The translations under genes were made by a program, and so were the position numbers. A DNA stretch of 64,000 nucleotides, taken from positions 26,152,485-26,216,484 of the forward strand of contig NC_134027.1 in NCBI RefSeq assembly GCF_964204645.1, written 5' to 3'. The stretch is from Tubulanus polymorphus. Its lineage: Eukaryota > Nemertea > Palaeonemertea > Tubulaniformes > Tubulanidae. The first letter of the stretch is position 1; each line of letters starts with the position of its first letter. The notes under the pieces are model-generated. The model was not told the DNA's origin and made no database searches. It worked only from the letters and a program-made list of their open reading frames with translations. Below, one piece after another: positions 10,850-40,500 of the stretch.

Positions 10850-11048
10850 GAGAGAATCCCACAATTATAACGAAAAAGTCCGAAAATGTAACTTCGAGAT
10901 AGTAGTTTATTTCAACGTTTCGACGATATCCTAATAGTCATCTTCAGGAATAATGAGATACTACAAAGATTAATTAATTATTTCACGTTGTCTCTGGATT
11001 GTATATATATATATATATATATCTCATAATTTTTGTAGTATCTCATAG
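10850..11048 (-). repeat. Dispersed repeat with hammerhead-like core, copy 1
   Basis: Read on the minus strand it contains CTGAAGATGACTATTAGGAT then ATCGTCGAAACGTTGAAATAAACT. The distal part, GTCTCTGGATTGTATATAT followed by CTCATAATTTTTGTAGTATCTCAT, recurs at 20595-20640 next to another copy of the core. A (TA)n run is embedded. Related copies: 20595-20747, 34826-34902 with 35292-35520, and 39600-39816. Confidence 0.75.
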
Positions 11049-11731
11049 TATCAATCCCAGTTGACTTTCACACACGGACACGAACATGTACTGTATTATT
11101 TCTGAATATTTCAGTTATAACAATATTGTATGCCTTCCTACGGAATGAATTTGAAGGTTGAAATTTGATATTTAATGAATACATCCCCGATGTGTTGTCG
11201 AGTGTGCAGACCAACAGCTGCAATGTCGCAGCACGTGTACGTCCCGCGCGGATATCCATGCAACTAAATAATAGAACCAATTCACGAATAGTACCACTGG
11301 TGAACAGCTTAACGAGCATGAAACGTTTAGAATGAATGCAACAAAAAGTCATTCAGTCGCCGTTCAGGCGGCAATGGATTGGTCAAGCGTTCGGACGTAT
11401 TAGTAAGTGACAAGTAAGTGTCCAGTTCCACAGTTGTGAGTAAAAGTTTGAGTCGAAGTCAACCGGGATTGATAATAAACTAACTGAGAATTTCAACTCT
11501 TAACTCACGACTGTGGAACCGGAATCCAGAACTAAATGATAGCATTGCCATAAACTACAATATAAAAAATTCTGAAACATGTTCATGCATTACATATACA
11601 ATCATTGATATTCCTGTGTTGGGGATTTTTCCAAATGTTTTAAACCTCTTTTTAGACATGAAATTCTCGCATGAACGAAAAATAATCACGGTATTCATTT
11701 ATGTAGGTATCAAAGAAAGTCGTTGATAAAA

Positions 11732-14700
11732 ATGTTCGCGAGCCAAACTTCGCTTCTGACTCCCGGTGATTCGGCCAATTATGATTCTACTAATATTGCA
11801 GACTCAGCCCCACTATCGGTAAGAATTCATCCGACCCGTAAACCACAAGGGGCATTCTATTCACTAAGTCAGGATCCAGTCGCACGGGCTGAGTTCAAGT
11901 TAGCTCACTCGTTCAAATTTCAACTACTGAGTCTAAAAACATAGACTCTAAAACCGTTTCAGAGTCCACGGGTAAATCTGTGCAACTGGTATCCTACCAT
12001 AATCATCTTACGATTTTTCAAATCGGGTAACTCAAAGTATGCACCCGATATTTTAGCAAAGCGAATAGATGAGAGATAGTCCGTCGTTCGATTCTATTTT
12101 ACAGAATGAAAATGAATTACAAGAAGATAAAGATGGTAAAGTTGAACCTGTTTCGTTAATGAGAATATTCGGTCCAACATTTAATCTATCACACGCGATA
12201 TTAGGCGCTGGAATATTAGGTTAGTCAGCGCGAAAAAACAAGAAAGGTTTCAACGAATTTAATTCAATTGCAACACGATAATGCATTGAATATACGTTTC
12301 ATTTGTAGGAGTGCCATATGCGGTTAAACTATGCGGATTAGGATTAGGCGTGTCAATGGTAATCATAATCTCCCTGATAACAGGTAATATAATACCCGAT
12401 GCGAAACGATAACTAATAATCATTAATCTATCAGACATATAAATAAAAGAAGTCGATTAATTCTCAAATGATTTAAAAAACTATACCATTTCACAGCTGT
12501 TATTTATTACGTGTATTTCATATCATTTTTTACAGACTACTCACTCCATATTCTCGTGAAATCGGGGATTACCTGTGGTAAATATACATATCAGGTAAGA
12601 AACGCAAAATATAATCAACGAAAAGACAGTTTACAGGAGTAGGAGTTTTAGGGGGTCCCGAGACCCCTGCCCTATCATTGAAGTGACCCTTTTCGTCAGG
12701 AAAGAGATCGTAAAAAATCTGCAAATTTGGCACTATAATGTAACGGCTGTATTTCTTTAAGGCTTGGATAGTATGACCCGCTTGCGGCCTGGGGTGGCTG
12801 CTTTTTACCAAATGAATTCTCTCTCCATCTGGACTCCGGCCTCACAATTTTCCCAGATGCGCCCTTGGTTTATAGCGACTATTCCTTCTCAGCGATATGA
12901 TGACTTTGATGCGAAATATCTCGTAGGATGTGATGAATGAAGCGTTCGGCAAACCGGGCTACGTTTTGGCGAATATTCTACTGTTTTTGCTACCGTTTAT
13001 AATGATGATCAGTTATAACATATTCGTCGGCGACGGTTTCACTAAAGTGGCCTTTATGTTAGGCGGAGGTATGTAACGCGTAAAAAATTCAAACTGTTTT
13101 ATCTTTTGAACTGTGCACTGGCCTCCATTGTCAAACTCGAACTTTTATGTTAATCTAATGTAATGGAGTAAAATGAATACATTAAAATGCATATGAAATT
13201 TACCTTCAAATTATATCTATTTGCACTCCATTGAACTGGTTGGGGATTTCGTACCTACTTTGTGAAGAACTATTAGGATTTTACCTATCATGGATTTTAC
13301 TTAGGGACATTTTACCGAGGGGATTATTACGTTGGGGAATTCTATCGACGTAGGGGATTTTTTACTGCTAACCGAGGTCATCACGCCTATATTAGAACAC
13401 ATCAGTAGCTTTTATTTGGGTTAATGAATTATGAATGATTAGGGGAAATGATGATTATTTAGTATCTGATGGATAGATATTTTCTGTGTAATTATGTATT
13501 GTTTCAGACAAAATTAGACATTCAATATGGGGTCGTAGAGAGTTGTATATCGTATTGGCTAATATTGCTGTAATGATACCCATATCACTCTACAAGAACG
13601 TCATCAAACTAGAAAAGGTATGAGTGTAGCGCATATGTCCTCGTACTCGTTTTTCAAAGATGGCTCGAATTTTTTCTGTTAATCCATTAGATTCTTCCAC
13701 ACAGCCGTTATCAAGTGATAAAAAAGATGCATACTAAATCTCAGGGCTTGTGGTATTTTAGAACGGCACTATGACCTAAAAAGGGGGAGCGTTCTCACCC
13801 CTCGACCCCCTTTGGGGGCGCTTATGATGTGTTTCGATTTGCGTAATCTTTGTATGTGTCTATTTGAAGAAGGCTATATGATATTTTGTTGTCTATGATG
13901 TAGTATGCTGCCGTTGCTATTGTCATCGTGTTGATGTTGTGCGCTTTGATCATTTATGGCGCTGTCCAATTCGGAGATGCAGTGTACGTATAAGGCGTCT
14001 TAAAATTTGAAGAAAGAATATTTCTATTTATTTCTCGCGTAGGAATTGATGAATATCCTATTATCTATTGCAGGAAATATCACGGTAAATCTATCGATTC
14101 TTTGGACATATCAGCACTAAGCGGTGTGGCTATGATTAGTTTATGTAAGTTGAATGACATTTCAAATTTTTAATCTTTATGATGATATATATTCTAGGAA
14201 AGCGTTGGAATCATGCTAATTGTGCCATCGGTTTTGGGCACATGTATACGATATATTTAATGGAATGCTTTTAAGCGTCAGCTGTCGAGTGTTTGTGATG
14301 TATAAGATATATATAGGTACAATGGCAGTTGCATTTTTAAATATCCCAGTACGGAAGCATCTGTATTCATTGCCAGTCAACAGAAAATCGAAGCCTATAC
14401 GTATAACAACTTCTAATCCGAATGACAATATCTTTTTTATCTATTCCAATGATGGTTCAGCTCGTACACGAGTTCGGTCTTTATTTCAGCTTTGGAATGC
14501 CACCATAATGCATTTTTCATATGGAATTCTATTTCGGAAGAGCCTAAAACCAGAGAACGACTGTGGCCGATTGTTCGTCATATCGGGTTCTTTCTGGCGT
14601 TTTCCACGATTCTTATTGTCGGGACAGCAGGATCTGTCACATTCAGACAGTTAGTGCAGGGTATGTATGTATCCCCATTCCTCAGTTTCGCGTGAAAGAC

Positions 14701-16968
14701 CAACGCTTCCAGTTACCCTGGTCCCGAACCCGGTATCCAGTGATTGCTATTTTTGAAAAAAAGAAAACGTTAAAATAACGTTGTTATACATTGATAACTA
14801 CTCCGAATTATTTGGGTACTGTGCGAGTCGATGTGCACTACGTCATCAATATTGGCGTCTCTGATCATTATAACAATTACAATTATGAATTTTGGCGTTT
14901 ATTTTTCATAATTGAATAAATTTCATGACAATTATTTTCTATGAACTTTCGTGCCTTTTTAATGAAGAATTTGTGAGTGGTTATGCGCTATGCGTCATCA
15001 AAATTTGGGCTAGACTGGTTGCCGGTTAATTGTATACAATTCTCAATCCCGTAACCGTTGACAGTTTGTATTCATTGGCATTGTCAACCACATATTCAAT
15101 CAATATGCATAAAATCATATACCTATTTTTTCCAAGGCGTCAATGAACTTTCAAGTATTTTCCAGTTTTTGATCGTTATATGCAAATGGTAGTTTAACTT
15201 GAGATTCCAAACAGTTGGGATAATATTCATTTTACCCCACTAGGCTCAATTATTAATGGTTTACCCTAAAACTCTATTATTTCACGCATTTCTCGTTTTA
15301 ACAGGAAATTTATTCATGAATTTCTGTGCAGATGATATTTTCGCGAACGTCGTATCGACCCTGTATCTGATAAATATCATGTTCATCTATCCGTTCGAGT
15401 TATTCGTAGTTCGACAGGTATGTTTCCACATTTTCTACTCCATGATGTATATATACTCCATCAGGTCCATACTCCAGGTGGGAATCCAAGAGTATCAACC
15501 GTATTGTCCGATAGGTCTAGAGCCCTTCGAAATAAAGTTGACTCTGAATAGACTCCAGGAACCGGTTCCACCGTTGTTAGTTTAACTCTGAATTCAGGAC
15601 CCAGTTCCGCAGTTGTGAGTTAGGGTTAACTCTGAGTTCAAGTTAGTTCATTTTCAACGAGTTAACTCTGAGTCAAATCTTGACTCAAAACTGAGGAACT
15701 GGGTCCCGTAGCTCTCTTAATTAGTCCCGATTAATTCAAATGTTAGACGCCTTTTACTGGGCTTCAAGTTCGCTAGGATACACAGAATGTTTTTTAAGCG
15801 CTCTCAGTACTGACCATTGATCCGCCCATTCTCGTCATGAATTCTGAGAGAGATTTCCTGCCACACGTCATCTCATCACATATTCATGTCGTAAAATTCT
15901 GGCAGTATTTACGCTCCGAGTCCGTCGGAGAATAATACCTATTAAAAGTGAATACCGGCGACGTGTGAAGGAAACACTGTTAGCCTATCCATGATTAGTG
16001 ACTTGTAGTAAGGCAGCCAGTTGGTAAGTCGAACTACTGTCACCACAAACAGCGGTTAGCTGCGCCCGGTGACCCAGCAGTTTTGGACCAAGACGGAAAG
16101 AAATTGAAAATATTAAGATAGTTTTATCATTTACGGAAGGATTCGGTTAATTCGGATTTTTCGATCCAGATTTTCAATTAAATTCGTATGGAATATTTGG
16201 TCTGTTTTACCTAAACAGTACCATTTTACCATCTAAACTATTATTCATAATTCGGATTTGACTTAATTCGAAGTAATCCGAGCGAGTTCTGCTGTACATG
16301 TATTGATTCAGAGTTTGATTATTTTTCTGCAGGTGGTCGACATGTTGTTGTTCGGTAATAGCGGAAAACTCACTTTATTACGACACGTTCTAGAAACGAT
16401 AGCAATAAGCTTGTTGTGTTTGGTATTTTCGTTAACCACCGAGTGTATATCAGTTATATTAGAATTCAACGTAAGTTAAAAATGCTTTTCCACTCAAAGA
16501 TGCTATCTAATTTAGCAGGGGGAAGCGTCCGGGGCAAACTTTGACCGAAGCGCTAAGAAATGAAAAGGTCATACTGAAAAAGAGCGAGTTAAAATGATTT
16601 CAATGTTTCAACTTCATTTTGTAGGTTTTCTTTATAAATCCATGAAAATCGAGATGTTCTGAATATCACTAATTCGATGATTTTGTTGTTAATTTTTGCA
16701 GGGTGTATTTGTGACAACGCCCATCGCTTTCATAATGCCGACGCTGTGCTATCTCGTTCTGCATAAACCGATTCTACAGACATCCAACGTTCTTTGTATA
16801 CTGCTGCTGGTGTTCGGCGTTATTACGTTCCTTCTCGGAATTGTACAACTTATTTTCCGACTCATAAAGTCGCCTCATACCATCCTACATTGTATCAAAG
16901 CCAATGATATGCCGTATTGTAGTCATCTATGGATGAATAATACTTACAGATCTCAGATGCTCAGATGA
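11732..16968 (+). CDS. SLC38A11: Putative sodium-coupled neutral amino acid transporter, SLC38A11-like
   Basis: Twelve coding exons: 11732-11818, 12105-12219, 12309-12383, 12536-12594, 12927-13068, 13508-13617, 13904-13983, 14074-14144, 14490-14660, 15305-15417, 16333-16470 and 16702-16968. Phases agree at every join and give about 475 residues, close to the family size. TM1 carries the family signature (FNLSHAILGAGILGVPYAVK). Later markers are KPGYVLANILLFLLPFIMMI, SYNIFVGDGF, ISLYKNVIKLEK, CHHNAFF (the conserved region before the middle helices), YPFELFVVRQ, and NGVF-TTPIAFIMPTLCYL near the end. The family moves small neutral amino acids with Na+ across the plasma or lysosomal membrane; SLC38A11 itself is an orphan member. 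The 52-residue tail after the last helix is not recognised. AATAAA lies at 17209. Introns hold several palindromic repeats. Confidence 0.92.
15598..15706. mobile_element. Palindromic MITE, GGACCCAGTTCC ends
   Basis: Begins GGACCCAGTTCCGCAGTTGT and ends ACTGAGGAACTGGGTCC. The middle repeats GAGTTAACTCTGAGT in both orientations. Near-identical relatives are at 48211-48321, and degraded ones at about 11421-11526, 10626-10760, 51611-51660 and 55435-55518. Confidence 0.8.
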
Positions 16969-18080
16969 ATTAAGTATTTTAGTCGAGCCGTACCTGGTTG
17001 TGATATGTGTTCCCTAATGTATTTATTTTGTTGATCACTTCTTGCCAGTGTAGATACTAAATTTGGATAAATCTAGCTCATCATGTTATAAGTCTATGTT
17101 ACAACAGATACTAGCCATCATCTCATCGAGATCTCATCTGAGATGATTGCTCGTATAGGTTTAAGCAAATAGCCAATAATTATTAAATATTGTATAAATA
17201 ATTTTTGAAATAAAAGCATTTATCATTCCTTACGTACGTTGTTCGATGGTATTTTTTTTGCTTTAGATGCAGAAGCCAAATTCATCTTCTTGAGACAAAG
17301 GAGAGTACTGCGGCGTTCACCCGAGGGCGGTATTAAATACGGTACTAAGAGTTCATCGTACGGTTAGGTTATTCGAAGCCTATTTGCGGCTTATTCAGTA
17401 CCGTACTGAAATACGCTGCTTATTAAGCGCGAAAAGTGATTCCGCGCCGAAGACCCGATTTCAGTACGGTACTGAGCTGGCCGCGTACTTTCTGAGGAAT
17501 ATATTCGCGACGGTTTTAGTTTAAAATACAATCCTTGTGATAAGACCCACGTAGAATATAATTTTAATGATCTAACGGGATTAATTAGTCATTTTAAAGT
17601 AGTTTCCTGAAAGTTTGCGCAATAAAATTGAATTTGAATTTGCATTTGTATCTTACCGATTAGCTTTCCGTTTTTCTACAAATTTTGCTCTCCCAAACTC
17701 AGAATACGTTCATTTGATGAATAAATTCTGGTTATGAACAAAATATAAGATGTTGTGCTTCGATTGATGTATCGTTTGTTGGATTTAGACGCTGAAATCA
17801 CCACGAGCTCTTCACTTGAAGTTGAAAGGTAGAGGATTTTTGCTGCCATAGCAATTGCCGTACATGTTATTTTGGGGGTCTCCGGCGCATTATATCGCGA
17901 TCTTGATCGGTGAAACGTTATCAAATGGCCTTCAAGTAGACATATTTAGAAAATATAGGATGTTTTGAACAATTTAAAACAGATTTAATCGAAATCCTTT
18001 GGATATTTTAGGAGTTACAGCAGTTTTAAATCGAAGTGTCTGTGTGTAGGAGTTTCCACGCTTTTCTATTTATAGTACCA
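16969..18080. other. Gene-free stretch with palindromic GTACGGTAC motifs
   Basis: After the transporter 3' UTR no gene is evident. Between about 17330 and 17475 the near-palindrome TTCAGTACCGTACTGAA occurs three times in varied form (ATACGGTACTAAG, CAGTACCGTACTGA, CAGTACGGTACTGA), suggesting a degraded inverted-repeat element. The minus-strand open frame at 17676-17924 has no recognisable domain and was not accepted as a gene. Confidence 0.5.
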
Positions 18081-18090
18081 GGGATACTGG

Positions 18091-18938
18091 TAGTTAGTTA
18101 CCTAATCGTTGGTGGTAAGCTTTTTCTAATCGGATGGGCTTATACCAACGTTAGGGATGACAAGGACCAAAACACGGTTGAAAAAAGTAACACTTCAAAA
18201 ATATACTTTCTATTCACTTCAGTCCACAATTAATGGCTTAATTCACAAACTAACACAGGGACCTTTCGAAATAATCCAATTTTATGTACGTTTCGAGTGA
18301 TTAATCAGCATTATTTTGAGAAATTAATTAATTTCTCCACAAATTTCGCCATTGGCCGCCATTTCTCTGTATTGCACATGTGGCATGATAAGACAAGGGG
18401 ACCTACAAGGATTTATATAAAACTTTCAAGACGAAACGACAATTTTTATTTTTGATGGTTTTCCAACTTTTATTTCAAGTCTTCGTGTTTTCCATAATAA
18501 ATAATGAAATAATAAATTTCTGGTAAAAGAAAAATGTGAATAAGTGTTGATTTTTTAATTTTTTTAAATTTCGTCGTTTCGCTTTGTTAGTTTGTGCTGT
18601 TGTCCTGGCCTCAGTCCACAGGTGCCAGCACCTCCAGTAATTTTCAAAATGGCAGCTGTTGACTGGACGGAAATTTACTCTCACTTTACGGCCGATTTGC
18701 ACATGGATTAAGATCGTCAGGTGAGGTGTTATAGGTATCAGACAAACTACGAATCTGTTGTGCGTCGATTACAACAAAAATGAGACAGATATCTTAAGAG
18801 ACAATGAAATGCCAGGCAAATTACTCGTCAGTCAAATTGGCTGACGAAGATTTCATATAAAAATGACCTTCCCATTCCTGACTGTGGTTTGTGAAAATAT
18901 CCGATCGTGAAACTAAACCACAGTCAGGTTACTGACTA
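18091..18938. mobile_element. 848-bp Mutator-like non-autonomous element
   Basis: Starts TAGTTAGTTACCTAATCGTT and ends CAGGTTACTGACTA, with a perfect 9-bp duplication GGATACTGG at 18082-18090 and 18939-18947. Its first 65 and last 55 bases equal the short 90-130-bp copies elsewhere, but about 725 bp of unique sequence lies between. That interior holds a 20-codon frame, 18649-18711 (MAAVDWTEIYSHFTADLHMD), followed nearby by a possible donor. This may be a captured gene fragment or the longer parent of the short copies; there is no transposase frame. Confidence 0.8.
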
Positions 18939-19761: not shown

Positions 19762-19885
19762 TAGTCAGTGACCTGACTGTGGTTTAGTTTCACGATCGGA
19801 TATTTTCACAAACCACATATATGCACATTGGTATAAGCCCATCCGATTATAAAAAGCTTACCACCAACGATTAGGTAACTAACTA
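19762..19885. mobile_element. Mutator-like MITE, full-length short copy
   Basis: TAGTCAGTGACCTGACTGTG at one end and GGTAACTAACTA at the other, in reverse orientation to the 18091 copy. This 124-bp copy shows the complete short form, including the TCCGATTATAAAAAGCTTAC block. No matching 9-bp flanks were found. Confidence 0.75.
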
Positions 19886-20010
19886 GAGTAGAACGATAAC
19901 CACACTCAAACGTGGTGAACGGATAATAAGATAAAATCCCACTATTTACAGATTAAAAGTATTTAAAAACAAGAATTTATTTATTAAATCTAAAATATTT
20001 AAAAGACACG

Positions 20011-20043
20011 ACGTTTCGATCTCACCCTAGAGATCATCGTCAG
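20011..20043 (-). repeat. Hammerhead-like core, covarying family 2
   Basis: On the minus strand the bases read CTGACGATGATCTCTAGGGT then GAGATCGAAACGTCG. GATCTC pairs exactly with GAGATC, between CTGACGA and GAAAC. The surrounding sequence (TTTAAATATTTTAG...) differs from the copy-1 family, yet the core and fold are the same. Confidence 0.6.
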
Positions 20044-20594
20044 GTGGGCCGACGTATCATACATGCTATCTCAGTATATAAATCGCGGTCGAATAAATCT
20101 ATCCACTCGTGTAGAAATGTTTTGCAAAGATCACGTTTTGTATAGGAATAATTTCCCCGTGAGTACAAATATACGCAGTGATGAAACAAACACCTTGAGA
20201 CTCTGATCAGAACCCACGCACGCATTCAGAATCATTCACGTCTCCACTGTCATGACTATCTAACTTCCTAGTATCTCCCGCACATACGTTGCTTGTGGGG
20301 GACCGGATTGGGACCGGAAAAACCGATCCGAGATAATGTTTTCTAGGATCAAGGTACATACGTAAATCAGAAATGATTTCCTTTTTTTGCCCGCGGGTTA
20401 GCGAAAAGTTTGCCGCCCCGAATCAGCAAGGTTTACAGCTTAAGCTCTTTAAGTTTCATTTATAATTATACTCACTATTGTTGTTTATAATCACCCCTTA
20501 GTTTGCTTCCCTTTAATCTATTTTAGCGTGTAACTGTTTCTACGTTAATTTTCCTTTAGTTTGTATCATCTCTGATTACTTGAATTAGTCTCTT

Positions 20595-20747
20595 TGTCTC
20601 TGGATTGTATATATATATCTCATAATTTCTGTAGTATCTGATTATTCCCGAAGATGACTATTAGGATATAGTCGAAACGTTGAAATAAACTCGAAGTTTC
20701 ATTTTCGGACTTTTTATTATCATTGTGGGATTCTCTCCTCATCCTTA
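20595..20747 (+). repeat. Dispersed repeat with hammerhead-like core, copy 2
   Basis: GTCTCTGGATTGTATATATA, then CTCATAATTTCTGTAGTATCT, then GAAGATGACTATTAGGATAT with AGTCGAAACG, ending at the shared tail ATTGTGGGATTCTCTCCTC. GACTAT pairs with ATAGTC. The element ends about 19 bases before the acceptor of the four-pass protein gene. Confidence 0.75.
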
Positions 20748-20796
20748 TATATGATATTCTTGCAGGTTTTATTCGTGGACACACCCTTCCGGCAGT

Positions 20797-21504: not shown

Positions 21505-21526
21505 CGTGGAGTAGTTATGCGCAGGG

Positions 21527-21690: not shown

Positions 21691-21699
21691 ATTGAAATA

Positions 21700-22035: not shown

Positions 22036-22159
22036 AATTAAGCTGGTGGTAAAGCCACGACAATGGTTACTGGACCGTTGGAATCAGATCAATTACACCA
22101 CGCTTTTTATTGTCCTAATCTTGATTAATCCCCTTCGAGGTATCATCCCTATCATTTAC

Positions 22160-27092: not shown

Positions 27093-29090
27093 GTTTGTTT
27101 ATAAATAGGAAGTAACTATTCGTACGGACCAATGCGGATAACTCCGAAGACTATTCGTACGGACCCTTAAGGATAACTCCGAAGGCTTAATTACGGCACG
27201 GCGTACCATTGCGCGGTACCGGGCGGACCCCCGTAACATAAAACTCATATAAAAGTTATATACCTATTATTAAAAGTTATATACCTATAAGTTATATACC
27301 TATTTTCAGAGGTGGAAACTTGAAGTTAACATTAAAAAAAGTAAGGTCATAGTATTTAGTCGTAAGGGTAACATTCGCAGTGTCCCTAGACTTTAAGTAC
27401 GGCAATCTAGCATTAGACATAGTGAAAGAATACAAGTACCTCGGTATAATTTTTTCATCAGACGGTGTTTTTAACAAAGCAAAGGTCCACCTGGTAAATA
27501 ATGCTAGAAGAGCCATGTTCTCAATCCAAAAACTTATTGGTGCGGGTAACTGCACCCCAGAAGTATGTATAAAACTTTTCGATAATTTGGTGGCACCAAT
27601 TTTATTGTACAGCTGTGAAATTTGGGTCCCCTCAAAACAACTCCTAAGGAAAATCTCAAAAACTGATGTCTTTAACATTGAATTAGCATTTGAAAAAGAT
27701 GACCACCTACAGAAACTATTTATCTCGTTTTGTAAATATGTACTTAATGTAACACGTCGAGCAACAAACGTGGCTGTGGTGAACTCGGTAGATACCCACT
27801 CTATATAGCTGCTTGTATGAGACTCCTGAAATTCTGGCATGCTGTGCACCAGAATCAGGACAGATTGGTGTACCACGCCATGCAAGAGTCAATCTTGTTG
27901 AACTCTACTTGGTATAACTTCCTCGCAAAACTTGCTGGCATCCTTAACCATTCAGAACTGATAGAGAATCCATCTAATTCTAAATCTTTTACCCGAGCTA
28001 AACATACACTACAAGAGAGATATAAAATTTTTTGGCACAAATGGATATCAAATTCCCCAAAACTAGACTGCTACAAAAATCTAAATCCTGAATTTACCAT
28101 GACGCCATTCTTAATGGATCCTATACTACCAAAACTGTTTAGAACCAACATTTGTAAATTTAGGATAAGTAATCATCGTCTTCTGATAGAGCGAGGAAGA
28201 TATACCAATTTACCAAGAGAGAATAGACTGTGCCAACACTGTAATGCCATTGAAGATGAGTTTCATTTTATAATAGAATGCTCTCGACTAAATGAAATAA
28301 GATATAACATAAACAGAGCAGTGAGCTGTATATACCCAGATGCCCCAAATTGGGAGGACCAGACCAAATTCAAAAAACTTCTCACAGATAAGAAACTAAG
28401 ATGGTCCTATTGGGGAATACATCTCTAAAGGCTTTGAAATCCTAGACTCTGATAATAATTAACACGAAACTGCTTTTATTCTTGTTATATTAATGTAAAA
28501 TGTTTATGTTTTGTAAATACTATTTGTAAATATCACTCTGTGCATCTCGACCCGAAAGGGTTTAAGCAGTACAATATTTATTGAATTGTTTGTTGAATTG
28601 AATTATAAAACTAATCGCCCGGGGTCTCAGAGGTTCGTTCCGAATTTCTGGCGTAATGCGATATTTTTGTTATATACTTTTAAAAAGTGTTCTGAGGGTG
28701 CGACTCCGAGGTAATTCTGAACTACACAAACGGAAATTTCTTTGAGAAATAAAATTATTTTTTAAATGTTTTTAGACTCTGTATTTGCCTATTTTAGAAT
28801 CAATTTTGACCTTGCTTTATAACAAACAACAATTGTGTTTAAATACAGGTCTAATTTCTAAATGACGGACAGGCGGGAATGTCCGTCAGTTGGCCCTAGA
28901 GATGGTAGAGTGTGTTCTTCACCGAGCGCGCCGCACAAGAATACCGGCAACCCGTCTAAACGGAGCGCTTTACAACAACACCGGTAACCCGTCTACTTCA
29001 ATCCTCAATTCCTGTATGTCCCTGATTGTCATTAGTAAATATTGGAGTTTGAATTTGATGTGATGTTTTCTGGTGAAATACTACCTAAAT
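27093..29090. promoter_or_regulatory. Divergent intergenic region ZC3HC1 / KLHDC10
   Basis: The two start codons face away from each other across 2.0 kb. Near the ZC3HC1 start is a direct repeat ACTATTCGTACGGACC...GGATAACTCCGAAG at 27116-27153 and 27153-27191, then GC-rich sequence. Near the KLHDC10 start is another GC-rich patch, 28865-29000, with a twice-used ACCCGTCTA. Between them sits the LINE remnant 27303-28605. No TATA box is obvious at either end. Confidence 0.55.
27303..28605 (+). pseudogene. 5'-truncated, frameshifted non-LTR retrotransposon (LINE) 3' end
   Basis: The remains of a reverse transcriptase C-terminus run across three frames: about 27310-27390 (RWKLEVNIKKSKVIVFSRK), 27380-27808 (EYKYLGIIFSSDG, a hallmark of LINE reverse transcriptases), then 27800-28428 (GRYPLYIAACMRLLKFWHAV through CQHCNAIEDEFHFIIECSRL, a Cys/His motif typical of the end of jockey/CR1-like proteins). 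Frame changes near 27390 and 27795 show it is dead. The 3' UTR has ACCCGAAAGGGTTTAAGCAG and ends in TTGAATTG-rich sequence around 28600. It probably arrived as a truncated copy. Confidence 0.88.
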
Positions 29091-32000
29091 ATGGAAGATG
29101 AAGTGAAATATTTCACATTTGAGTTGGTCACAGCTAAAGCAGATGAACAAAATGATCCAGGTAGGTAGAGAGGCTACGTCTGGTGTAGTTAGTTACCTAA
29201 TCGTTGGTGGTAAGCTTTTTCGATAAATATCCGATCGTGAAACTAAACCACGGCACAGACAGGTTACTGACTACGTCTGGTGCTGTCAGTCCAGCTACTT
29301 TTTACTAATGTCTATTTATTAATTGATGAGACCTGTTTTTCTTGGATATTTTGCTTACTTTTTGGGGTACATACCTCATTTATGTCTTAACAGAATGCCA
29401 AAAATCGCGGACAACAACTGAATATCCGATATATTTCCAGTTCTGTACCAATTAGATGGATTGGCAAAAATACTCCTTAAGTCCAGTTGAATGAGAGAGA
29501 AAATCCTCCATTTTGTGAAATTTCTTGAATTTTTACATTGTCACCATGCCTACGAAATGAAGTTATTTTTCTTGTGGGGTCTCCACAACTAAATCAGGGT
29601 GGCGTAGGCATGGTAACAATGTTCAAATTCAAGAAATTTGACAAAATGGAGGATTTTCTCTCTCATTCAACTGGACTTAAGGAGTCTTTTTGCCAATCCA
29701 TCTAATTGGTACAGAACTGGAAATATATCGGATATTCAGTTGTTGTCCGCGACTTTTGGCATTCTGTTAAGACATAAATGAGGTATGTACCCCAAAAAGT
29801 AAGCAAAATATCCAAGAAAAACAGGTCTCATCAATTGATAAATAGACATTAACCCTCTCAACCCTCTGCTGGGTAGTCTAAATTTAGTAGTCTGGGAAGT
29901 CTAGTTTTTAGTTTACCTAGCCGTTGTTTGTTGGGTGGTTCGTTGTAGGGGAACCCTACAACGACTGGTATTCAGACTACCCTCTGGTTCCTCAAGATCC
30001 TACTAACCCTAAACCCGATGATATGATTTTTACCTCCTGACTGCAATTACTTAGAGTGTAACCCTAGTGGGTCTTAAGAGACGGCCAGGGCCTTTTTATA
30101 GGTTGTTATGGCTCACAACCTGACTAAGTTAGCAGAGCTTAGTCCATGTATGTGTCTCGACAGCCAACGCCAGAGGTGGTTTCCAACTAGGGACCTCTCG
30201 GTTCCCAGTCCTCCACTCAACCAACTGAGCTAACTGCACAGGACAAATTAAAAGAATTTTAAAATCGAAAATTTATTTATTCAAAAAATCTAAACTATAA
30301 AATACATACGCGTAGGCCTATACTATATTATATAGGGTACGGTCAAGTAGTGCAAAAGTAAATACTTTGCTCTATAGCTTACTACGGCTAAATATCCCAA
30401 AATCAACTTTTTACGCTTTTTTGGCTAGCCTTTCTGTTCGATTCATTTGTCTCCCAGCTCCAGACGATCGTTCATTTCTGATTTGTGTAAATATTTTCAG
30501 AGTTTCTGCAGCACCCCGACGACAGAAGCGGTCACAGAATAATCGTCACGAATAATAATCTTTATTCGATCGGAGGTTATAATCCTCATTATTGGGGTCG
30601 AGAAAACGATGAGTTTACTATATACCCTATATTCAGAGAAGTACGTCTAATGTTTAAAATCAATAGTTTTCTCATCCTCGCTTGCCAGGGTTTGATTGAC
30701 TCCCGCTGAAGCTCAGGCCAACACAAACCTTGGCCGCAAACCCTTTATTGGTCTTTTGCACCACTCAAGATTTCTTTGGCGCAATAGACCAATAAAGGAA
30801 CTCGGTTTGTTGAATGAGCTTGCGCAGAAGAAATTCAAACCCTGGGAAGTGAGGATGGTCTATCTGAAGCGATGTCTCTATCTTAACTATCCGCTGATTA
30901 ACTTTAACCATTTTATGTGCAACTGACCCCCATTGTAATAAGTGATATGATATTGGTTTGGTTTTTCGTAGTTATGGAAGTTCAATTTAACGACTAGAAT
31001 ATGGATGAAACTGAAAACATCAGGAGAGATGCCCGTCGAATTAGCCTCACATGCAGGTAATTACATTCGAGTTTTCATAAATAATTGGTAATACATTCTA
31101 GGTTTGATTCTAGTCTGAATACCGGACAGGTGATGTACTAGGTTACCCGACAACTTGGAAAAAACAGTTTTAGTTCTAGATACCGGTAGGCCTATTGTGA
31201 CCTGAATTTCTGCACCCAATTCGACAGTTATGAATTAGATTGACTGTAGCTCTTGATATTCATGTACAGGGGCTGGTTGCATAGTCATGGCTTAGACTTA
31301 AGACCAGTCCAAGACCAACTTTGTTCTATAGCCAATCTAACAATCTAAGACCAGTCTCAACATTTAAGACCACTTTTGGACTTAAGTCACAACTGTGCAA
31401 CTGGACCCTGGGGCCGATTCCAAAGTTGAGACTTAAGTAAAAAAGTGGTCTTAAAACTTAAATCTGGTCTTAAACTGTTAGATTAGGTAGAACTAAGATG
31501 GTCTTAGATTTGTCTGAAGTCTAAGCCATGACTATGGAACCGGCCCCAGGTGCTTATTTCTTAACCCTTTCAGTGCAGCTACAACACTGCAGTGCGATGT
31601 ATAGATCGGTGATGGACTAGTACACCGCATCGCTGTGTATTGATATTAGTAAAAAGTTTTTATTTCCATTGAAAGATGACAGCTCCTGGAATTTTTTAAG
31701 CGCGCTTCCGGGTATCATTAGTCGGCACTAAAAGGATTAATATGACCCCACGAAAAACAACTGAAGTTTTTGTTTCGGCCCAAGTGATGGATTGGCCCTA
31801 AAAATTGCGCAGTTCATCTGTCGCCATTAATCAATTGACTGTACTAACCAGATATTGATGTATTATAGCGGTGCTTGTTTCTTATTCAGCATTGTTACTG
31901 GGTAACAATTTACTGGTTCACGGCGGAACAGGAACTCCGTTCGGATATTCGAGCAGTAATCAACTTTACGCCTGTAATTTACGTACTTTACAATGGGTGA

Positions 32001-34712
32001 ACATACAATGCAACGGAACTCTACCTGGAGAGGTTTACGGACATGTAAGTTTGTTTTAGCTTTACGTCGTTCGGATCTAGGTTTGCCGACACTACCGGTA
32101 ATCCTATTCGATTGTTCATTTAACATCAAGACAGGACCACAATTTTTGAAGCATTAGTTATTGTTTAGGCCTAACTAAAATCTTTGCTTCGGGCGAAAAA
32201 ACAAACGTTTACTTATCTATATGGTTGGTTTTCTGAAAAAGAGTGAGTGACCGTTTATAATTTAATTGAAGGAGAAACCCACAATTGTGAAGAAGAAAAA
32301 CTAATAAGACTCACTCCTATGAGCCATTTTCAAAACTAAGAGAGCAGCAATGTTCAGGTTCAATTCTACGAGCTATTTTCGAAAAGAGTTTTGAAAATGT
32401 CTCATAGAATTGAGTTGAAATGTCACTTCTCTCTTAGCAGTGAAAAAGGCTCATAGAATTGATTTCAAGGCTGAGGGCCTTACTTCAATTGTGTTTGATT
32501 ATTTTCTGATGTTGTCGTTACAGAGTCTCACGGTGGTTGGTAAATATATCTATATGTTCGGTGGCACGACTGGATTTGAATACAGCGACGACGTACATAA
32601 ACTTGACCTGGAAACGTTCATCTGGGAAAGAATTCCGATAGACGATCGTAAACCACCCGATAATAGAAGACGACCAAAAGGAAGGTAAGAATCATTCTGT
32701 CAACTGTGAAACAGGTTACCACATTGCTAGAGAGTGGCCTGCTTTGTTGCTGAATCATTCCAATGTTTCAATTGAAGTTTCGCAATTTGTAATTAGCTAT
32801 GGAGACAGAACAACTACTGTATTCAGTGCTTATTAATTTCCGGTTGTTCAGATATATTGAGACTAGGACCAAATATGGTCTTCATATTACGGCTCAAACC
32901 TTATTGGCCAAGCTTAAGCGGAAGATATGCTTCGATCCTTTACCAAGTGTTTTGGCGATCTTGATTATTCAATACTTTGTTTGTGGATGGACAGAATGTA
33001 AATTGGAAATTTTATGAACTATTCTTGAATCGTCCTACAAAAAGTCCTACAAAGTCCTTGAATGAAATTGGATATGGGCGCTATTGATCCTGGGAGGCAG
33101 ATATTGCAATTGAATTAAATTTCAAAATATTCTCTTCTAAACTAGGTATCGGCATGAAGCTGTCACAGATGGTGAAAAGGTTTTTATTTTTGGCGGTGGA
33201 AGAGCTTACGCTACTTACGGATTTGAAGAGGTAGCAATGATGAACGTCGAGACTGAAAGCGATGAAAACTCAAACACTACTGATATTTATAATTAATGTA
33301 TACTTGTAGCTTGATGTTTTTAATATAAAAGAGAATGTTTGGGAGAAGCACACGTGTCAGCCGGCTGGATCAATCGGATTCCCTAAACCTAGACGATGTC
33401 ACAGTTGCGTCAGATATAAAAACAGTAAGCATTAATCGCGAGTCACTGACAAATTCTCACCGTCCGAAAAAAATATTGGAAATCAGCCGTGTTCACACTA
33501 TCCACTCACAGTTTGTTCAAATTAGACTATACACATTGTCACTGGTCAAGTTAGACACAACACTGTGATTGTGGTTGACAAGCAATAAGAACTATGTTTC
33601 TGTTCATACACAGAAAAATGGTCGATTATATTATCTAGAAAGAACCTGAATCAGTGTTTTTGTCCATTCTAGAATGGAATGGACTTTTATTTGCTAGGAT
33701 GAAAACTTGTTCTGTTCTAAATTGGAACAAATTGAGACCGTTCTGAATTACGAATGCGGCTAATGGGGAGGGAGGGGACGACGTTTTGTATCGGTGTCTG
33801 TTTATTATAGATGTGTTTATCTGTGGTGGATATAACGGTGCTGAACCATTCAATGATCTATGGAAGATGAATCTGACGACATATCAGTGGTCGAAATTCT
33901 CTCAATTACCGAACCCAGTTTATTTCCATTCGGCCGATGTTACAGTTGTAAGTATCCAATAATCGTTTCTCGTAAAGTGACTGTCGAAATCAATCGAAGA
34001 AGAAATCATGTAATTATGCTGTTTGTTCATTTTTCAAGATTTTAGTCAAGAGATTTCCCCATATCTTGACCAAATTTTTCTGATTACGGGAAATTATATG
34101 ATATCCTCAGTGAGATTTCCCGATATTTTCCCTGACCCTTGACCAACATTGTCCTGATTACATGAAATTATAAGATATCCTGACCCGGGTTGGGCTGTTT
34201 CCTATCAAGAGGTTCCTTGTGTCTCGAACAAAAACGACGAGACACCAAAAAGTCTAATTCCCCAATTTTTACCTGACCCTTGACCAAAATATCCCCGATT
34301 GAATTATATGATATCTTCAGTGGGTATATGAAGATATTCCTTGTGCCACTTGTCACCAGCAAGAACAACAAGACACCAAAATGCAAATTGCCTGACTTAA
34401 AAGAAAGGAGTCAGTCAGAATTTCATGATTTGTAAGAACCCCGATATGTTTATTACCGGTAGTGAAGATCATCTGAAATTTGTATTTGATGAATGTATGT
34501 TTCAGGATGGTTGCATGTATATATTCGGAGGTGTTAATGTGATAGACACCGAAAGAAATGCGGATATTTATCGGATTTGGCTGCATCCGCCGACCTTGAA
34601 AGAACAATGTTGGATACGATTTACGTCGTTAGTGGAAGACTTTGCGTTGCTGGGACGAGACGTTCTACTCGAAATCGGAATTCCCGAGGATTTAGTGTCA
34701 AGAGTGTGCTAG
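29091..34712 (+). CDS. KLHDC10: KLHDC10, kelch-domain E3 ligase receptor
   Basis: Nine coding exons: 29091-29160, 30501-30640, 30972-31056, 31869-32044, 32524-32684, 33146-33230, 33310-33424, 33811-33947 and 34506-34712, phases consistent, about 391 residues. Kelch repeats are visible as paired Gly motifs with downstream Trp: RSGHRIIVTNNNLYSIGGYN, LLGNNLLVHGGTGTPFG, YIYMFGGTTGFEYSDDVHKL, RYRHEAVTDGEKVFIFGGG, RRCHSCVRY...VFICGGYNG and CMYIFGGVNV. The C-terminal helix region (WIRFTSLVEDFALLGRDVLL) is where the human protein contacts elongin B/C. Family knowledge: KLHDC10 is a CUL2 substrate receptor that recognises Ala-tailed chains from ribosome quality control, and it has been linked to ASK1 signalling through PP5. 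AATAAA lies at 35651. Introns hold MITEs, foldbacks and a SINE. Confidence 0.94.
29186..29273. mobile_element. Mutator-like MITE, 88 bp, with 9-bp duplication
   Basis: TAGTTAGTTACCTAATCGTT ... ACAGGTTACTGACTA, flanked by CGTCTGGTG at 29177-29185 and 29274-29282. It starts 26 bases inside the first intron of KLHDC10 and lacks the middle block of the longer copies. Confidence 0.88.
29304..29852. repeat. Foldback element, third member, nearly perfect 240-bp arms
   Basis: Left arm ACTAATGTCTATTTATTAAT, right arm ATTGATAAATAGACATTAA. The arms match almost base for base inwards (GAGACCTGTTTTTCTTGG, GGTACATACCTCATTTATG, GGAAATATATCGGATATTCA, and so on) to a loop around 29560-29590. The very low arm divergence suggests recent origin or ongoing correction. 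Intronic to KLHDC10; transcription would give a long double-stranded RNA hairpin. Confidence 0.88.
29995..30243 (-). mobile_element. tRNA-derived SINE
   Basis: On the minus strand it starts GTGCAGTTAGCTCAGTTGGT (A-box-like TAGCTCAGTTGG), then GAGAGGTCCCTAGTTGGAAACC (degenerate B box), followed by a 170-bp non-tRNA body ending near the CTAAACCC of 30005. The B box has lost the TTCGA core, so it is an old copy. Confidence 0.65.
31267..31548. mobile_element. Two adjacent palindromic elements with GGCTTAGACTTAAGACC cores
   Basis: The first unit, about 31267-31407, starts GGGGCTGGTTGCATAGTCAT and ends TGTGCAACTGGACCC. The second, about 31408-31548, starts GGGCCGATTCCAAAGTTGAG and ends CATGACTATGGAACCGGCCCC. 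Both contain GTCTTAGATT-type blocks in mirrored order. Single relatives are at about 40049-40153 and 57684-57832. Intronic to KLHDC10. Confidence 0.7.
31565..31736. mobile_element. piggyBac-like MITE, short copy
   Basis: TTAA (31561-31564) then CCCTTTCAGTGCAGCTACAA; right end CGGCACTAAAAGGA then TTAA (31737-31740). It carries one diverged ACACTGCAGTGCGATGTATA block. TTAA flanks with CCCTTT ends are the piggyBac signature. Confidence 0.78.
34040..34442. repeat. TTACAGATCAGGGA-type inverted repeat element
   Basis: CCTGACCCTTGACCAAAATA, ATATGATATCTTCAGTGGG and CAAGACACCAAAATGC blocks, ending in ATGATTTGTAAGAACCCC. The same blocks recur at 54707-55073, 53300-53520 and 43010-43100. The left end of this copy is lost. 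Lies in the last intron of KLHDC10. Confidence 0.65.
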
Positions 34713-34906
34713 CTGTATAAATATTGACGATTCTCTAGAATTTCACAGTTATTCAAGAGAATATCATCAACCAATACTCGGAGTCCTCTGTGTTGTAACG
34801 ATAATTTAAAATCCCACACTAAGCATGTCGAGTCCGAAATGTTTCCTTGAGCTAGTGTAGTTTATTTCAACATTTCAACTATATCCTAATAGTCATCTCA
34901 TAATAA

Positions 34907-35222
34907 TAATTGTCATTTATATAGCGCAGGTAACTAAACTAGAGTCTGTTCAAATGCGCTCCAATTTTGGTATTATTATCCCCAGCCTATAACTCTATTC
35001 ATGAACCAGTTATCTCTCCCTGGAGAGAAGTAACATCGGAGCAGCTACTAGGTGCTCAGAAGTCGTCTATACCCATTTACCTGTACTCCTGGGTAGAGAG
35101 ACTAGAGGCAATGAGGATAAGTGTCTTGCCGGAGGACACTATGGTAATGTACAGGTGTTCGAACTCACGACCTGGCTTCTTAGAGTCGAACACTCTAACC
35201 ACTTGCCCACACCGCTCCTTCG
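34907..35222 (-). mobile_element. tRNA-derived SINE with GCGCTATATAAATG tail
   Basis: On the minus strand: GGAGCGGTGTGGGCAAGTGG (A box), then AGGTCGTGAGTTCGAACACC (good B box GTTCGAAC), then CCGGCAAGACACTTATCCTC and a tail TGCGCTATATAAATGACAAT followed by (TTA)n. This head-body-tail layout is typical of tRNA SINEs that borrow a LINE 3' end. It has inserted into a hammerhead-like repeat whose halves lie at 34826-34902 and 35292 onward. Confidence 0.82.
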
Positions 35223-35320
35223 GTATCTCCAGGAATTCCTAACTTAAAACCTAAGTCACTTATGGACTGAAAATATTTTGTTAAAGCCTAAGTATTCCTG
35301 AAGATGACTATTAGGATATA

Positions 35321-35488
35321 CAGTTGAAGTCAGTTATAACGCTACCATCCTTTTTAATGCCACCTCACTTAACGCAGACATTTTTCAGAGAACAAACTTT
35401 CTCGATCTAACTCTAATTCAGTGAAAATACGCCATATTTTTCATTGTCCTAACAGTGGCGTTATTATAGGACTAAAGCTCTTTTACTG
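35321..35488. mobile_element. pogo/Tc1-like 168-bp MITE
   Basis: Starts CAGTTGAAGTCAGTTATAAC and ends GCTCTTTTACTG, with TA on both sides (35319-35320, 35489-35490). GTTATAACGC near the left end mirrors GCGTTATTATA near the right. Removing it rejoins GGATATA with GTCGAAA, so it landed inside the stem of the hammerhead-like repeat. Confidence 0.8.
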
Positions 35489-35520
35489 TAGTCGAAATTT
35501 TGAAATGAACTGCTATCTCT

Positions 35521-37507
35521 AATAGTGGTATTCGAGAGATTATTGTACTAAAATAAATAGCGATGGCACTAATATGTTTTACTTTGTGCAATGTGTTTCT
35601 ATGTGATGATATTAAATGCAGCTTGTTCATCGATCTTTGTACATAGTGTCAATAAAATTTTATAAACTATTCGTCATATAATTCAATTAATAGTTAGTTA
35701 GTTCTTTAGGCTGATAGCTTCATTTCGCTTGTCGAGTCAAGACTTTCAGACTGGTTTGATATTCCACTCGAGGAGCAGTTGAGTTCACTGAAGTGATCGA
35801 TGGAAAGAAGTGAATAAGATTTTCTCATGTTTATTATCGAAAATATTCTAGAATAGGTGATACAATGAAAATGACACCGGCCATGTAGAAATAATATCAT
35901 AAATATCGAGAAGGGATGAAATATCAAATTGTGTCACTAACTAATAAGTTTACAGTGAAGATATACTTGGTTAAGAATTAGTGGCAATTCAAAGGGGTCT
36001 TCGCAAAATACAAACCCCTACAAATGTAAGTGATTTAAAGTGTTGTGCCCCATTCTAGATGGCATGAAAAGGGATTTCAGGGAAAAAATGGCAAAATCTT
36101 GTACAAAAGTAGATGCAGCCAGAGGCATGTCAGGGTCCATTGCGGTTTTTCAATTTCCCTTGAGCCCACTCAAAATAATATAAGCCTGATGAGAAAATGA
36201 TCAGTCGTGAGAAGGCACTTTCAGATTTTTCAGGCAAAGGGCAACTTGATAATTTAAGGAGGGCAAGGACCCTCTAATAAGTGAAAACCCACAGTTAGTT
36301 ACAACTAAACCCCATGACTAGAGAAACCAAGTTCTCTGATATAAGGGTTTAGTAGTTAACTCAAAACTGCCAGCGAATAAACTTTTAAATATCTACTGTG
36401 GGTTTTCACTTATCAACTCTAAACTGAGAATATATCAAGTCAGTGCACCAGTCATGTTAACAACCCTCTCTAAATCCATGCCGATCCCTGTGTGCGTAAA
36501 GCATTGTAACCCCATATAGATGCATATTAATACCCAATGAATGCCTCTTTAAAACATTAACCCTCATCAATCTTCAAGTTACATCATAACGATAACAACG
36601 TCATCATAAAATCTCAATCATTACGGAATCTATGAAATTCTTCTCACCGTATTTTAACACATAAAATATCCACATTCAATCCAGTTGAATGAATTTAATA
36701 CATTTCTCAGATTTCGTAGAATTGGTTTTATATCACAGCTTAAACGCGGTATTTTTGTATAAATAAAAACAAATAAACAACGCAATTATTTACAAGCAAT
36801 TATTAAAAACAGACTTTGTTTAGTTTTTTGCTGTCATCTCATCTTGAAGCAAAACTTGCGTTAGTTAAAAAACAGAAACCAGTTCCACTAAACTGTACTA
36901 ACATTCTACAAGTCAAATCATTTAATTTTCAATTGGTTAATCATAGAGTATAACCATGGAATTCTGTGCAAACCTCCCTCCCTCGGCAGGAACTTGAAAC
37001 TGATGTTATGGTGAGACTCTGCCATGGCATGAAACTCTGCCTAATCAGAAGTCAGATTTTATTCTAGCCCGGGTTATTCCTATCTGCAACTTAGCCTCGG
37101 TGATTATAAATAACAGGCAATCTGATTGGTGTTGCTAGTTTTCATGCGACTTAGCTGCACATGCAACTGTGAACTTGTACTAATCAGGGCCTGGTTTTAT
37201 AGACTGGTATCATCTTTAACCTGGGGGTTAACTCAATTGAAAATGAATTAAGTTAGCCTCCAGGTTAAAGTTAATACCAGTCTATAAAACCGGCCCCAGG
37301 GGTTTTGTGCCGCTACAGAATCCCTGCCGAGGGAGGAAGGGTGCAAACAGAATCTTATCTGCGTATTTTAAGTACCCTTTCATAAAATTAATGCCCATCA
37401 GACGAGAAGAAACTGCTTTGAAGTCAGTTGTGGAGCATAGAGAGATGCTTTGAGAATCCTCGCGCATGAAGCAGACCGCCGCTGCTGCTGCTGCTGCTGC
37501 TGCTGTC
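35521..37507. other. Gene-free stretch between KLHDC10 and TMEM116
   Basis: The two genes converge here. It contains the KLHDC10 polyadenylation signal (35651), an inverted-repeat element 36280-36415 (AGTGAAAACCCACAG ... CTGTGGGTTTTCACT) and a palindrome 37187-37297 (GGGCCTGGTTTTATAGACTG ... CAGTCTATAAAACCGGCCCC). The rest is AT-rich with no supported gene. Confidence 0.6.
37481..37505. repeat. (GCT)n / (CAG)n microsatellite in the TMEM116 3' UTR
   Basis: Eight GCT units. On the gene strand this reads (CAG)n starting 3 bases after the TMEM116 TAA. It is outside the coding frame. Confidence 0.9.
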
Positions 37508-40500
37508 TTATAAACCGAATGTTCCACTTTGACTTCCGTTCATCAAATGAGTCCTTTCATTCGCATCATCAGCTCTTAAAGCATTAGTAAAACTCTGTCG
37601 ATACCAACCATAGATAATACAGTTTACAAATCCTTGTAATGGAGCTGTCAATGCCTGTAATTTAACGATTAATAAAATTAAAATTACCATACAGACACAA
37701 ACCAACTCTTAGTATCTCTCTCATTTCTGTAGTGAACTGATATAAATCTCAGTATAGTAAACGAATAAAAACCCGTAGATTTGTAGAAACAGTTTATTTC
37801 CTTACAGTTTCGAGGTTAAAACTAAACCTCATCTTCAGAGGAACAAAAATACTGTACCTCATCTTCAGAGGAACAAAAACTACTGTTTCTACTAATCTAC
37901 TGTTGGTTTTTATTCATCTCTCTCATTATCGAACAGAACAGAAATAAACCGAATTCTCACCTGAATGATAAAAAGAGGGTAGTAATATCTCATGTTGAAA
38001 GATTTGCTTAGCGAGAAAAATCCCAAGAGAAGCGCTGAAAAGAAATCACATACGTACATAGATAGAGTACCTAGCAGCATTGAAATAGGGATCTAGTTCA
38101 CTAAAAGGAAAGTATCGAGATTGACGCTGTTTTTTCTTTTTTAAATACTTACATGGAAACCAACAAACGAAGAATACAACTTGAAATTGTATGGCTTTAT
38201 TGCGCAATCTTTCTCCTTCAATTGAATGTGTATATCCTAGCACACCTGCATAGAAATTATTACACTGTTAATGTAATTTTCTCAACGTGAATATCTTTTT
38301 TATATCAATAATGAAACTATCAGTGTTATTTCAAATGTGTTAAGTACATACGATGCCTGAACAGAGCCATATAGGCTGTATATATAATATCCACAAAAGG
38401 ATGTTCGCAGTTCATAACAGAGCTTTCTCCTGAAATGCGAATGAAATGAAAATCCAAGAAAATGGCGAACAAACCTCTGCTATCCTGTAACTGCGCGTGT
38501 TTCTTGTATGTACATAAATATAGCACCTAAACGAAGAAAGCAGTAATAGTTATAGCGTAGTTGTCATTAGAAAATTACTTTCGTAAAAATTTAGTTTGAT
38601 ACCAAAGAATTAATTACTAAATGATAATTTGTGTATTGTTTGTGTTCAAGGCTGTTATGGCTGAGAGGTTGTGGGTTCAAGCAGGAGCAGAACCAGGTTC
38701 AAGATGGTTGTCCACTTTTTGAAATCTAAGGCCTTTTTCTAAGCTTCGTCACAATTTTCTTGTTCACATATAGAATGATTTTTTTAGACTTTCTAGAATC
38801 AGTAAAACAGTTAATTATTGCCACAACAAAATTTTGGTAGTTCTTCAGTTTTTCAACCTTAATTCATATCTTTCCTCAGAATATAATCGGTCCGGAATAT
38901 TAGAGGATGGAATTCTAAACGACCTCAACATTTTAGGGGGGTGTCCGGACCCCCACGGACATCCCCTGGATCCACTGTCAGATCCCAGTGAACCCATGCT
39001 TTATATACAGTCAGGAATTATGTCAGTATTCGTCAACAAATTGATCTAACAATGAAAGTTGTAGCTCCAATAAATTCCAGCGAATGCGAAAGTGCTGTGG
39101 CACTTATCTGAATTAATGAATATTGCTTGTCTAAATAAAGATCAGACCGAGTCGTGTTTGATCAGGAAGTAAAATGAATTGTTTGATTAAAAATAGCAAT
39201 TTATGATAGTATGATTTACCGGTATTACATACAATATACTTACAGCGTTTGTGACCATGATAAGAATGAGGGGTATTAGGAAGAGATATTTAGCTACGAC
39301 GTGCAATGTAGGCAGTTCACCCCACGAGTGCTGAAATAGAAAACAATTCAGATTTTCATGAAAATGAATAAGGCTCTTCATACATTTTTTCAGTAAATTC
39401 AGAAATATATGAATAATTCTAATAAACGGAGTCGTACTTACCAAACAGATGTCCTCGTTGTAGTGGAAAACTGGTAAACACCTGCTCAAAATAGGCATAG
39501 TTTCGTTAATATCTATATTAGTCATATTTGTTGATTTGTGGATTGAGCTGTAAATGCTAGTGGATCACGATTGGTAGAACACTATATCCGTGTTGATGCG
39601 ACGAGGAGAGAATCCCACAATGATAATAAAAAGTCCGAAAATGAAACTTCGAGATAGTAGTTTATTTCAACGTTTCGACTATATCCTAATAGTCATCTTC
39701 TTTTATTCCTGAAGATGACTATTAGGACATAGTCGAAACGTTGAAATAAACTACTATCTCGAAGTTTCATTTTCGGACTTTTTATTATCATTGTGGGATT
39801 CTCTCCTCCTCAAATGCTAGTGGAGTTTGAAGTTCAAAACCTAGATCCAAATTTTGAGTTAAGATTTGATTCTAAAGTCAAAATATTTGGAAACGAACTA
39901 ACTATAACTCAAAAAGTCAAACTCAGCTCTAGGAAGCTGGGTCTTCATACGTATTTCGGGAACTGAAAATCTTGGCCATATTGAGTGAGGCCCTGGCACC
40001 GAGATGGTCTGGATTTGATAATGAAATTCTTGAAAAACTTGCCGCACTGGTTTCATAGCTTAGACCTAAGATCAGTCTAAGACATTCTCAGCTCTATAGC
40101 CAAGACCGGTCTTAAGATTTAAGACTACTTATGGACTGGTGGTCTTGACTATGGAATCTGGATGCTGATTTATAAATTCAGTCTTGAGTAATACATGCAT
40201 TCTCGATGTATTATTTAGTATATCTACCTGAGTCCCTTGTCGTAAATACTCCTAGCGATGAACGATGAAATTTCAACAAGTTTTCGTATGATTGTAACGC
40301 AAAGAGTGAGAAAATTGAGGAACCGATGATTTGATTCGATGATTTGAGAATAAACACTTACGATGAACAGTCGTGTCCGGGCGGTATTATACGACGCATT
40401 CTAGGCTCTTGCTCTTCTTTCTTCGTTTCCAAATAAAATAATACGCTCATCATAACGGACAGAGCGATAGGAATAAACCTGCAATTAGAGAATAAATTAA

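Follow-up and report, generated by a model that had tools for sequence, protein, structure and literature searches.

The 64,000-nt stretch of the Tubulanus polymorphus genome analyzed here (assembly GCF_964204645.1, contig NC_134027.1, positions 26152485-26216484; hereafter the window, from a genome of 267.8 Mb) contains dispersed repeats that share a hammerhead-like RNA core. These are very probably minimal type I hammerhead ribozymes residing in the pseudo-long terminal repeats (pLTRs) of endonuclease-containing Penelope-like elements (PLEs), with the copies in the window being short, mostly degenerate insertion fragments. The class is already known from the minimal hammerheads of Penelope elements; here several families are found in one genome, with the fold, covariation, cleavage triplet, linkage to full-length PLE frames, and pattern of insertion ends all observed. 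The original prediction, that several dispersed repeats share such a core, describes something real. The exact form CTGA(A/C)GA-T-stem-loop-stem-GAAAC occurs four times in the window, at 10917-10947(-), 20013-20043(-), 37807-37838(-), and 39709-39739(+), and the pattern CTGAMGAT-N6-36-GAAAC has four exact matches against 0.18 expected from shuffled sequences. Genome-wide, CTGAMGATN{10,30}GAAACGT has 3179 matches (1618 + 1561) versus 12 (6 + 6) in a reversed control, and the form of the pattern with U at position 7 has 868 versus 2.

Five clear hammerhead copies are present in the window, one of them with a mutated core, and decayed copies exist besides; a scan with a covariance model (R2) gave five strong matches (47.7 to 54.9 bits) in addition to truncated and decayed ones. 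Since R2 was built from family representatives that include a window sequence (family F3) and close relatives of others (F1 and F2), its scores in the window are not independent evidence. The best-preserved copy is an F1 hammerhead at 39700-39750(+) (R2, 54.9 bits), which consists of stem I TTATTC/GAAATAA with one bulged A, CUGAAGA, an extra U, stem II GACTAT/ATAGTC, GAAAC, and the triplet GUU. Its inverted partner, recognized from the inverted repeat and by R2, lies at 39661-39705(-) and is cut off at its 5' end inside the core, with CUGA lost. The two copies belong to a head-to-head pair of F1 pLTR and tail sequences at 39563-39811, composed of 39563-39700(-) and 39703-39811(+), in which the hammerhead ends face inward and the tails outward and which has approximately 95-96% identity to L061, a PLE locus described below. 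A further F1 hammerhead, whose stem II contains a single mismatch, occupies 10906-10956(-) inside a PLE fragment at 10850-10972(-). The F1 copy at 20639-20689(+), also matched by R2, retains the intact stem that had been claimed for it near position 20646, and the exact core claimed along with it is absent, as the core reads CCGAAGA (U4 changed). A solo F1 pLTR and tail at 20447-20743(+), 95% identical to L061, includes a TATA-like box and an initiator region 5' of the hammerhead. R2 also matched an F2 hammerhead at 20002-20052(-) (stem I CAC/GTG, CUGACGA, an extra U, stem II GATCTC/GAGATC, triplet GUC) and an F3 hammerhead at 37796-37847(-) (stem I TTCCT/AGGAA, CUGAAGA, an extra U, stem II GAGGTT/AACCTC, GAAACU, triplet GUA). 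The decayed copies comprise an F1 fragment at 34810-34898(-) with a hammerhead remnant at 34869-34898 (R2 and L061 alignment), an F1 hammerhead remnant at 35289-35339(+) (R2), and a weak hammerhead-like match at 52937-52987(+) (R2, E 0.004).

CUGANGA and GAAA are invariant in the 11 family representatives, with only N7 varying (A, C, or U). An NUH triplet directly follows GAAAC in all families (GUU, GUC, or GUA, and AUU in F6; in the F3 copy at 37807, one U stands between GAAAC and GUA), and the 3' strand of stem I comes after it, which makes the prediction's remark that there was no clear cleavage triplet wrong. Stem I is formed by the bases 5' of CTGA pairing with those 3' of the triplet, and its strands are TTATTC/GAATAA in F1, ACAC/GTGT in F2, TTCCT/AGGAA in F3, CCAC/GTGG in F4, CGC/GCG in F5, AGA/TCT in F6, AGTTA/TAACT in F7, and four pairs in F9. 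The families were chosen by their core, some of them also by a loose filter on stem II, and never by stem I.

As had been proposed, the stem sequences differ between families and yet remain paired. Across stems I and II of the 11 representatives, 87.6% of cells are paired, 10 of 11 pairs are changed on both strands, and the covariation score of 0.92 drops to 0.10-0.15 once partners are displaced by one to three columns; this count is conservative, because stem I of F3 is misaligned by one base in the alignment. Taken alone, stem II has 92.4% of cells paired with both-side changes in five of six pairs, and stem I has 81.8% with both-side changes in five of five. Among the eight non-redundant families, stem I averages 4.25 bp with a family's own strands versus 0.63 bp across families, and stem II averages 6.0 bp versus 2.2; the observed pairing total was reached by about 5 of 100,000 random matchings, which is the frequency of the true matching itself among them. 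In approximately eight element families, the covariation of stem I equals that of stem II in strength, and the excess of own-strand over cross-family pairing bears out the compensatory changes that had been suggested for a PLE-linked hammerhead core.

No stem III forms within one molecule, as GAAACGUH leaves no room for a hairpin loop; the stem is loopless (A15.1-C-G-U16.1), which is why the triplet comes directly after GAAAC. Only two ribozymes together could build stem III, each lending its self-complementary ACGU (ACGU/ACGU, with AUAU/AUAU as the equivalent in F6). In the lowest-energy monomer folds of the F2, F4, F5, F7, and F9 representatives, GANG of the core pairs with CGUH of the cleavage strand, an inactive alternative. 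One extra base is present between A9 and stem II in all families, mostly U and A in F6, F7, and F9. It had been noticed earlier as an extra T that made activity uncertain: the base is there, but since it is constant in all families found, we do not regard it as damage. A role for the extra U in making an AUG together with A9 was considered and dropped, as the base is A in F6, F7, and F9 and the AUG of F1 and F5 runs into a stop no more than six codons on. A viroid hammerhead whose conserved core holds an additional nucleotide was reportedly described by De la Pena and Flores in 2001, a likeness to the present families. Its additional nucleotide is placed between A9 and stem II, and it differs in being a three-stem hammerhead unrelated to PLEs.

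The link to Penelope-like elements that the original prediction raised is supported by their proteins. A GIY-YIG search of the genome produced 150 scored candidates, all above the family cut-off. At L061, an 833-aa open frame is flanked on either side by the F1 hammerhead, in units of 2856 bp that follow one another in tandem; at L062, the F5 hammerhead likewise brackets 817-aa frames in tandem units; and at L063, the F7 hammerhead accompanies an 820-aa frame. The proteins of all three loci carry RVT_1 and a C-terminal GIY-YIG domain in one frame, both above Pfam cut-offs, and the F1 protein is 67% identical to that of F5 and approximately 28% identical to that of F7 over the reverse transcriptase part. 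A comparison of the PLE protein by sequence with solved structures gave no match. The window itself contains no complete PLE frame with reverse transcriptase and GIY-YIG, and its F1 pieces, 79-96% identical to L061, cover the pLTR and tail only. The 2856-bp units represent tandem PLE units with pLTRs, and neighboring copies at 100 places were arranged head-to-head in 26 cases and tail-to-tail in none, an excess that is a known trait of Penelope. F1 insertions are mostly head-to-head pairs with 0-43 nt between them (window 39600-39811; L089-L148), in which one arm extends all the way to the presumed 5' end of the RNA and its partner is broken off anywhere.

The ends of F1 insertions were mapped in 77 copies picked by exact tail sequence, with positions given relative to C3 of the core. 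The 5' ends of 34 of the 77 fall at -9 to -5 (P ~4e-33 versus an even spread over -60 to +56), and roughly half of the right ends fall at +96 to +109, the others extending beyond the stretch examined. The same 5' interval holds the ends of 9 of 17 F5 copies, 7 of 9 F8 copies, and 10 of 17 F4 copies. Long copies of F1, F4, F5, F6, and F8 carry an initiator-like TCA(G/T)T with its A at -7 or -8, and in these five of six families the distance from the first T of a TATA-like box to the initiator is 29-31 nt; the TATA patterns were written after inspection of the sequences, and no significance is claimed for them. Because the 5'-end peak coincides with this TATA-initiator arrangement, we place the probable transcription start at the foot of stem I, 5-8 nt 5' of the core, with complementary DNAs usually reaching the RNA 5' end, a placement that we consider an even call. 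Tight coupling of a promoter to a hammerhead was not found in a literature search that did not extend to the main PLE promoter paper, Schostak 2008, and the inferred arrangement of a hammerhead at the transcription start is new here as far as that search reaches.

Two further observations concern the tails and clusters of these insertions. The tail sequence (T)GTGGGATT is common to F1, F2, and apparently F5 copies, though the remaining tail differs; it is located at approximately +90 after C3 in F1 (e.g., window 39785-39800) and at window 19930-19945(-) in F2, as well as at L087, and is perhaps a reverse-transcription start signal. Elsewhere in the genome, L079, L166, and L170 contain several partial hammerheads, direct and inverted, within approximately 100 nt, an appearance that repeated copying of the 5' end through template switching would give.

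The RNA folds as stem I, CUGANGA, the extra base, the stem II hairpin, GAAA, the NUH triplet, and the stem I 3' strand, and its active form would need either a pair of ribozymes joined through their ACGU sequences, as tandem units in one transcript would allow, or help from the PLE protein. Cleavage by the hammerheads in these elements is predicted, and we lean toward its taking place. We hold more tentatively, at somewhat less than an even chance, a scheme in which the TATA box and initiator set +1 at the 5' strand of stem I, a lone ribozyme stays uncut, a second ribozyme in tandem dimerizes with the first, and the insertion ends record uncut templates. The transcript would then begin with the ribozyme, and a lone 5'-terminal ribozyme would be largely inactive, because its stem III is without a partner and the best monomer fold in several families pairs the core with the cleavage strand. 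A read-through transcript of tandem units would offer two ribozymes that could pair and separate the units by cutting, perhaps aided by the PLE protein. Reverse transcription would start in the tail approximately 100 nt downstream and would usually run to the RNA 5' end. The insertion ends point to uncut RNA as the customary template, in agreement with in vitro work on an Anolis PLE. Mapping such ends is a means of learning from a genome whether RNA is cleaved before it is reverse-transcribed, and here the map indicates that it mostly is not.

Several observations weigh against reading these motifs as working hammerheads at a promoter. Only 1 of the 77 F1 5' ends is within one base of the cleavage site, which gives no genomic sign of cleavage before reverse transcription; the F7 initiator has its A at -5 and a TATA spacing of 42 nt, breaking the rule of the other families; stem I of F8 is only 2 bp; and the base after A9 is not in the textbook hammerhead core. 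The Rfam hammerhead models found no match in the window or in short test loci, at the gathering score or at E up to 10, the matches returned instead being palindrome look-alikes of microRNA families, and RF00163 had no match genome-wide, with the control equally silent. A lack of match to any hammerhead model had been named beforehand as grounds for refutation, and for Rfam this is formally what was found; we do not count it as decisive, because those models describe three-helix molecules and the present ones are without stem III. The failure appears to be a limit of models that expect three helices, in a comparison that had no published PLE hammerhead as a positive control, and on this reading the Rfam hammerhead models overlook an abundant minimal class.

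That the motif is a chance similarity among unrelated repeats deserves mention given that it is short and that repeats multiply any accident, and we regard the idea as practically dead: both stems persist in about eight families despite their differing sequences, the genome-wide count far exceeds its control, and the own versus cross-family pairing and the covariation score refute it. Retrozymes, the other carriers named in the original prediction, are small tandem repeats, non-autonomous and equipped with canonical hammerheads, which propagate via circular RNA; metazoan retrozymes have type I hammerheads, and thousands of short hammerhead-bearing repeat copies would suit them. Retrozymes are recognized as small non-coding tandem repeats whose canonical type I hammerheads have helix III and loop contacts. 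The present copies do not answer to that description: they have no stem III, do not form small tandem units, and consist of sequence that matches PLE DNA and stops at the PLE tail. A retrozyme identity is rejected as highly improbable.

A fold derived from a hammerhead could instead have lost cleavage and now act as a structural signal at which the PLE protein binds or primes. The absence of an insertion-end peak at the cleavage site fits such a role, as do the finding that hammerhead mutants of the Anolis PLE were without effect on insertion in vitro and the position of the Anolis binding motif in the first 172 nt of the open reading frame (ORF), near the hammerhead (PMC11167929). However, the catalytic-core bases and NUH are kept across families in which all stems have changed, which would be needless for a binding hairpin, and the hammerhead of Anolis is able to cut if the protein is supplied (PMC11167929), leading us to judge loss of cleavage unlikely. 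A stronger challenge, directed at the transcription start and in our estimation holding perhaps one chance in three, is that palindrome or microhomology effects at head-to-head junctions caused the 5'-end pile-up. An inverted partner lies immediately upstream in 27 of the 34 peak F1 copies, and for Penelope, self-priming and palindromes at inverted junctions have been put forward (PMC3846280). Yet F1, F4, F5, and F8 use the same position despite having different sequence there, that position coincides with a canonically spaced TATA-initiator arrangement, and seven peak copies have no inverted partner.

Minimal hammerheads in PLEs agree well with the reading that we prefer, of hammerhead ribozymes in pLTRs. 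PLEs carry minimal hammerheads without helix III that are proposed to act as dimers (PMC6155905, PMC7761336), and the published examples (Lunse, Weinberg, and Breaker 2017, as given in PMC6155905, PMC7761336, and PMC7229834) share with ours the type I strand order, the absence of helix III, the tandem pLTR location, the thousands of dispersed copies, and the proposed dimer action. They may differ with regard to the extra base between A9 and stem II, which is present in every family here. The hammerhead of the Anolis PLE Poseidon PAc cuts only with the PLE protein present; the ORF of this element opens at stem II, and reverse transcription is initiated 111-118 bp inside it (PMC11167929). PAc and the families described here have in common a minimal hammerhead at the pLTR-ORF junction, a reverse-transcription start approximately 110 nt further on, and uncut RNA as the main template; in contrast to the PAc ORF, an AUG at stem II in F1 and F5 is followed shortly by a stop, the ORF opening only downstream of it, and cleavage was measured for PAc and is predicted for our hammerheads. 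In the part of the Adineta vaga Penelope account covered (PMC3846280), pLTRs are found in direct and in head-to-head inverted orientation and bear a TATA box and an Inr-like TCACT, and the ORF of approximately 830-842 aa encodes reverse transcriptase and endonuclease, all as in the present elements; the TATA-Inr gap there is 20 bp, versus 29-31 nt in five families here, and that part makes no mention of a hammerhead.

Why PLEs keep a weak hammerhead has been called a mystery (PMC7761336). Approximately eight families with clean covariation, a constant extra base, and a ribozyme at the probable transcription start offer a concrete, testable arrangement, in which the extra base and the probable coupling of the ribozyme to the promoter most deserve to be followed.

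Other repeats are also present in the window. An inverted repeat at 29306-29554 and 29603-29851 has 249-nt arms that are 97% complementary with 48 nt between them and looks like a foldback element; a sub-threshold MIR2670 match at 29306-29851 is attributable to it. The open frames at 27292-28428 resemble, by eye only, a decayed C-terminal part of a non-LTR reverse transcriptase, and a 27-bp tandem repeat array at 6005-6463 is open in several frames on both strands.

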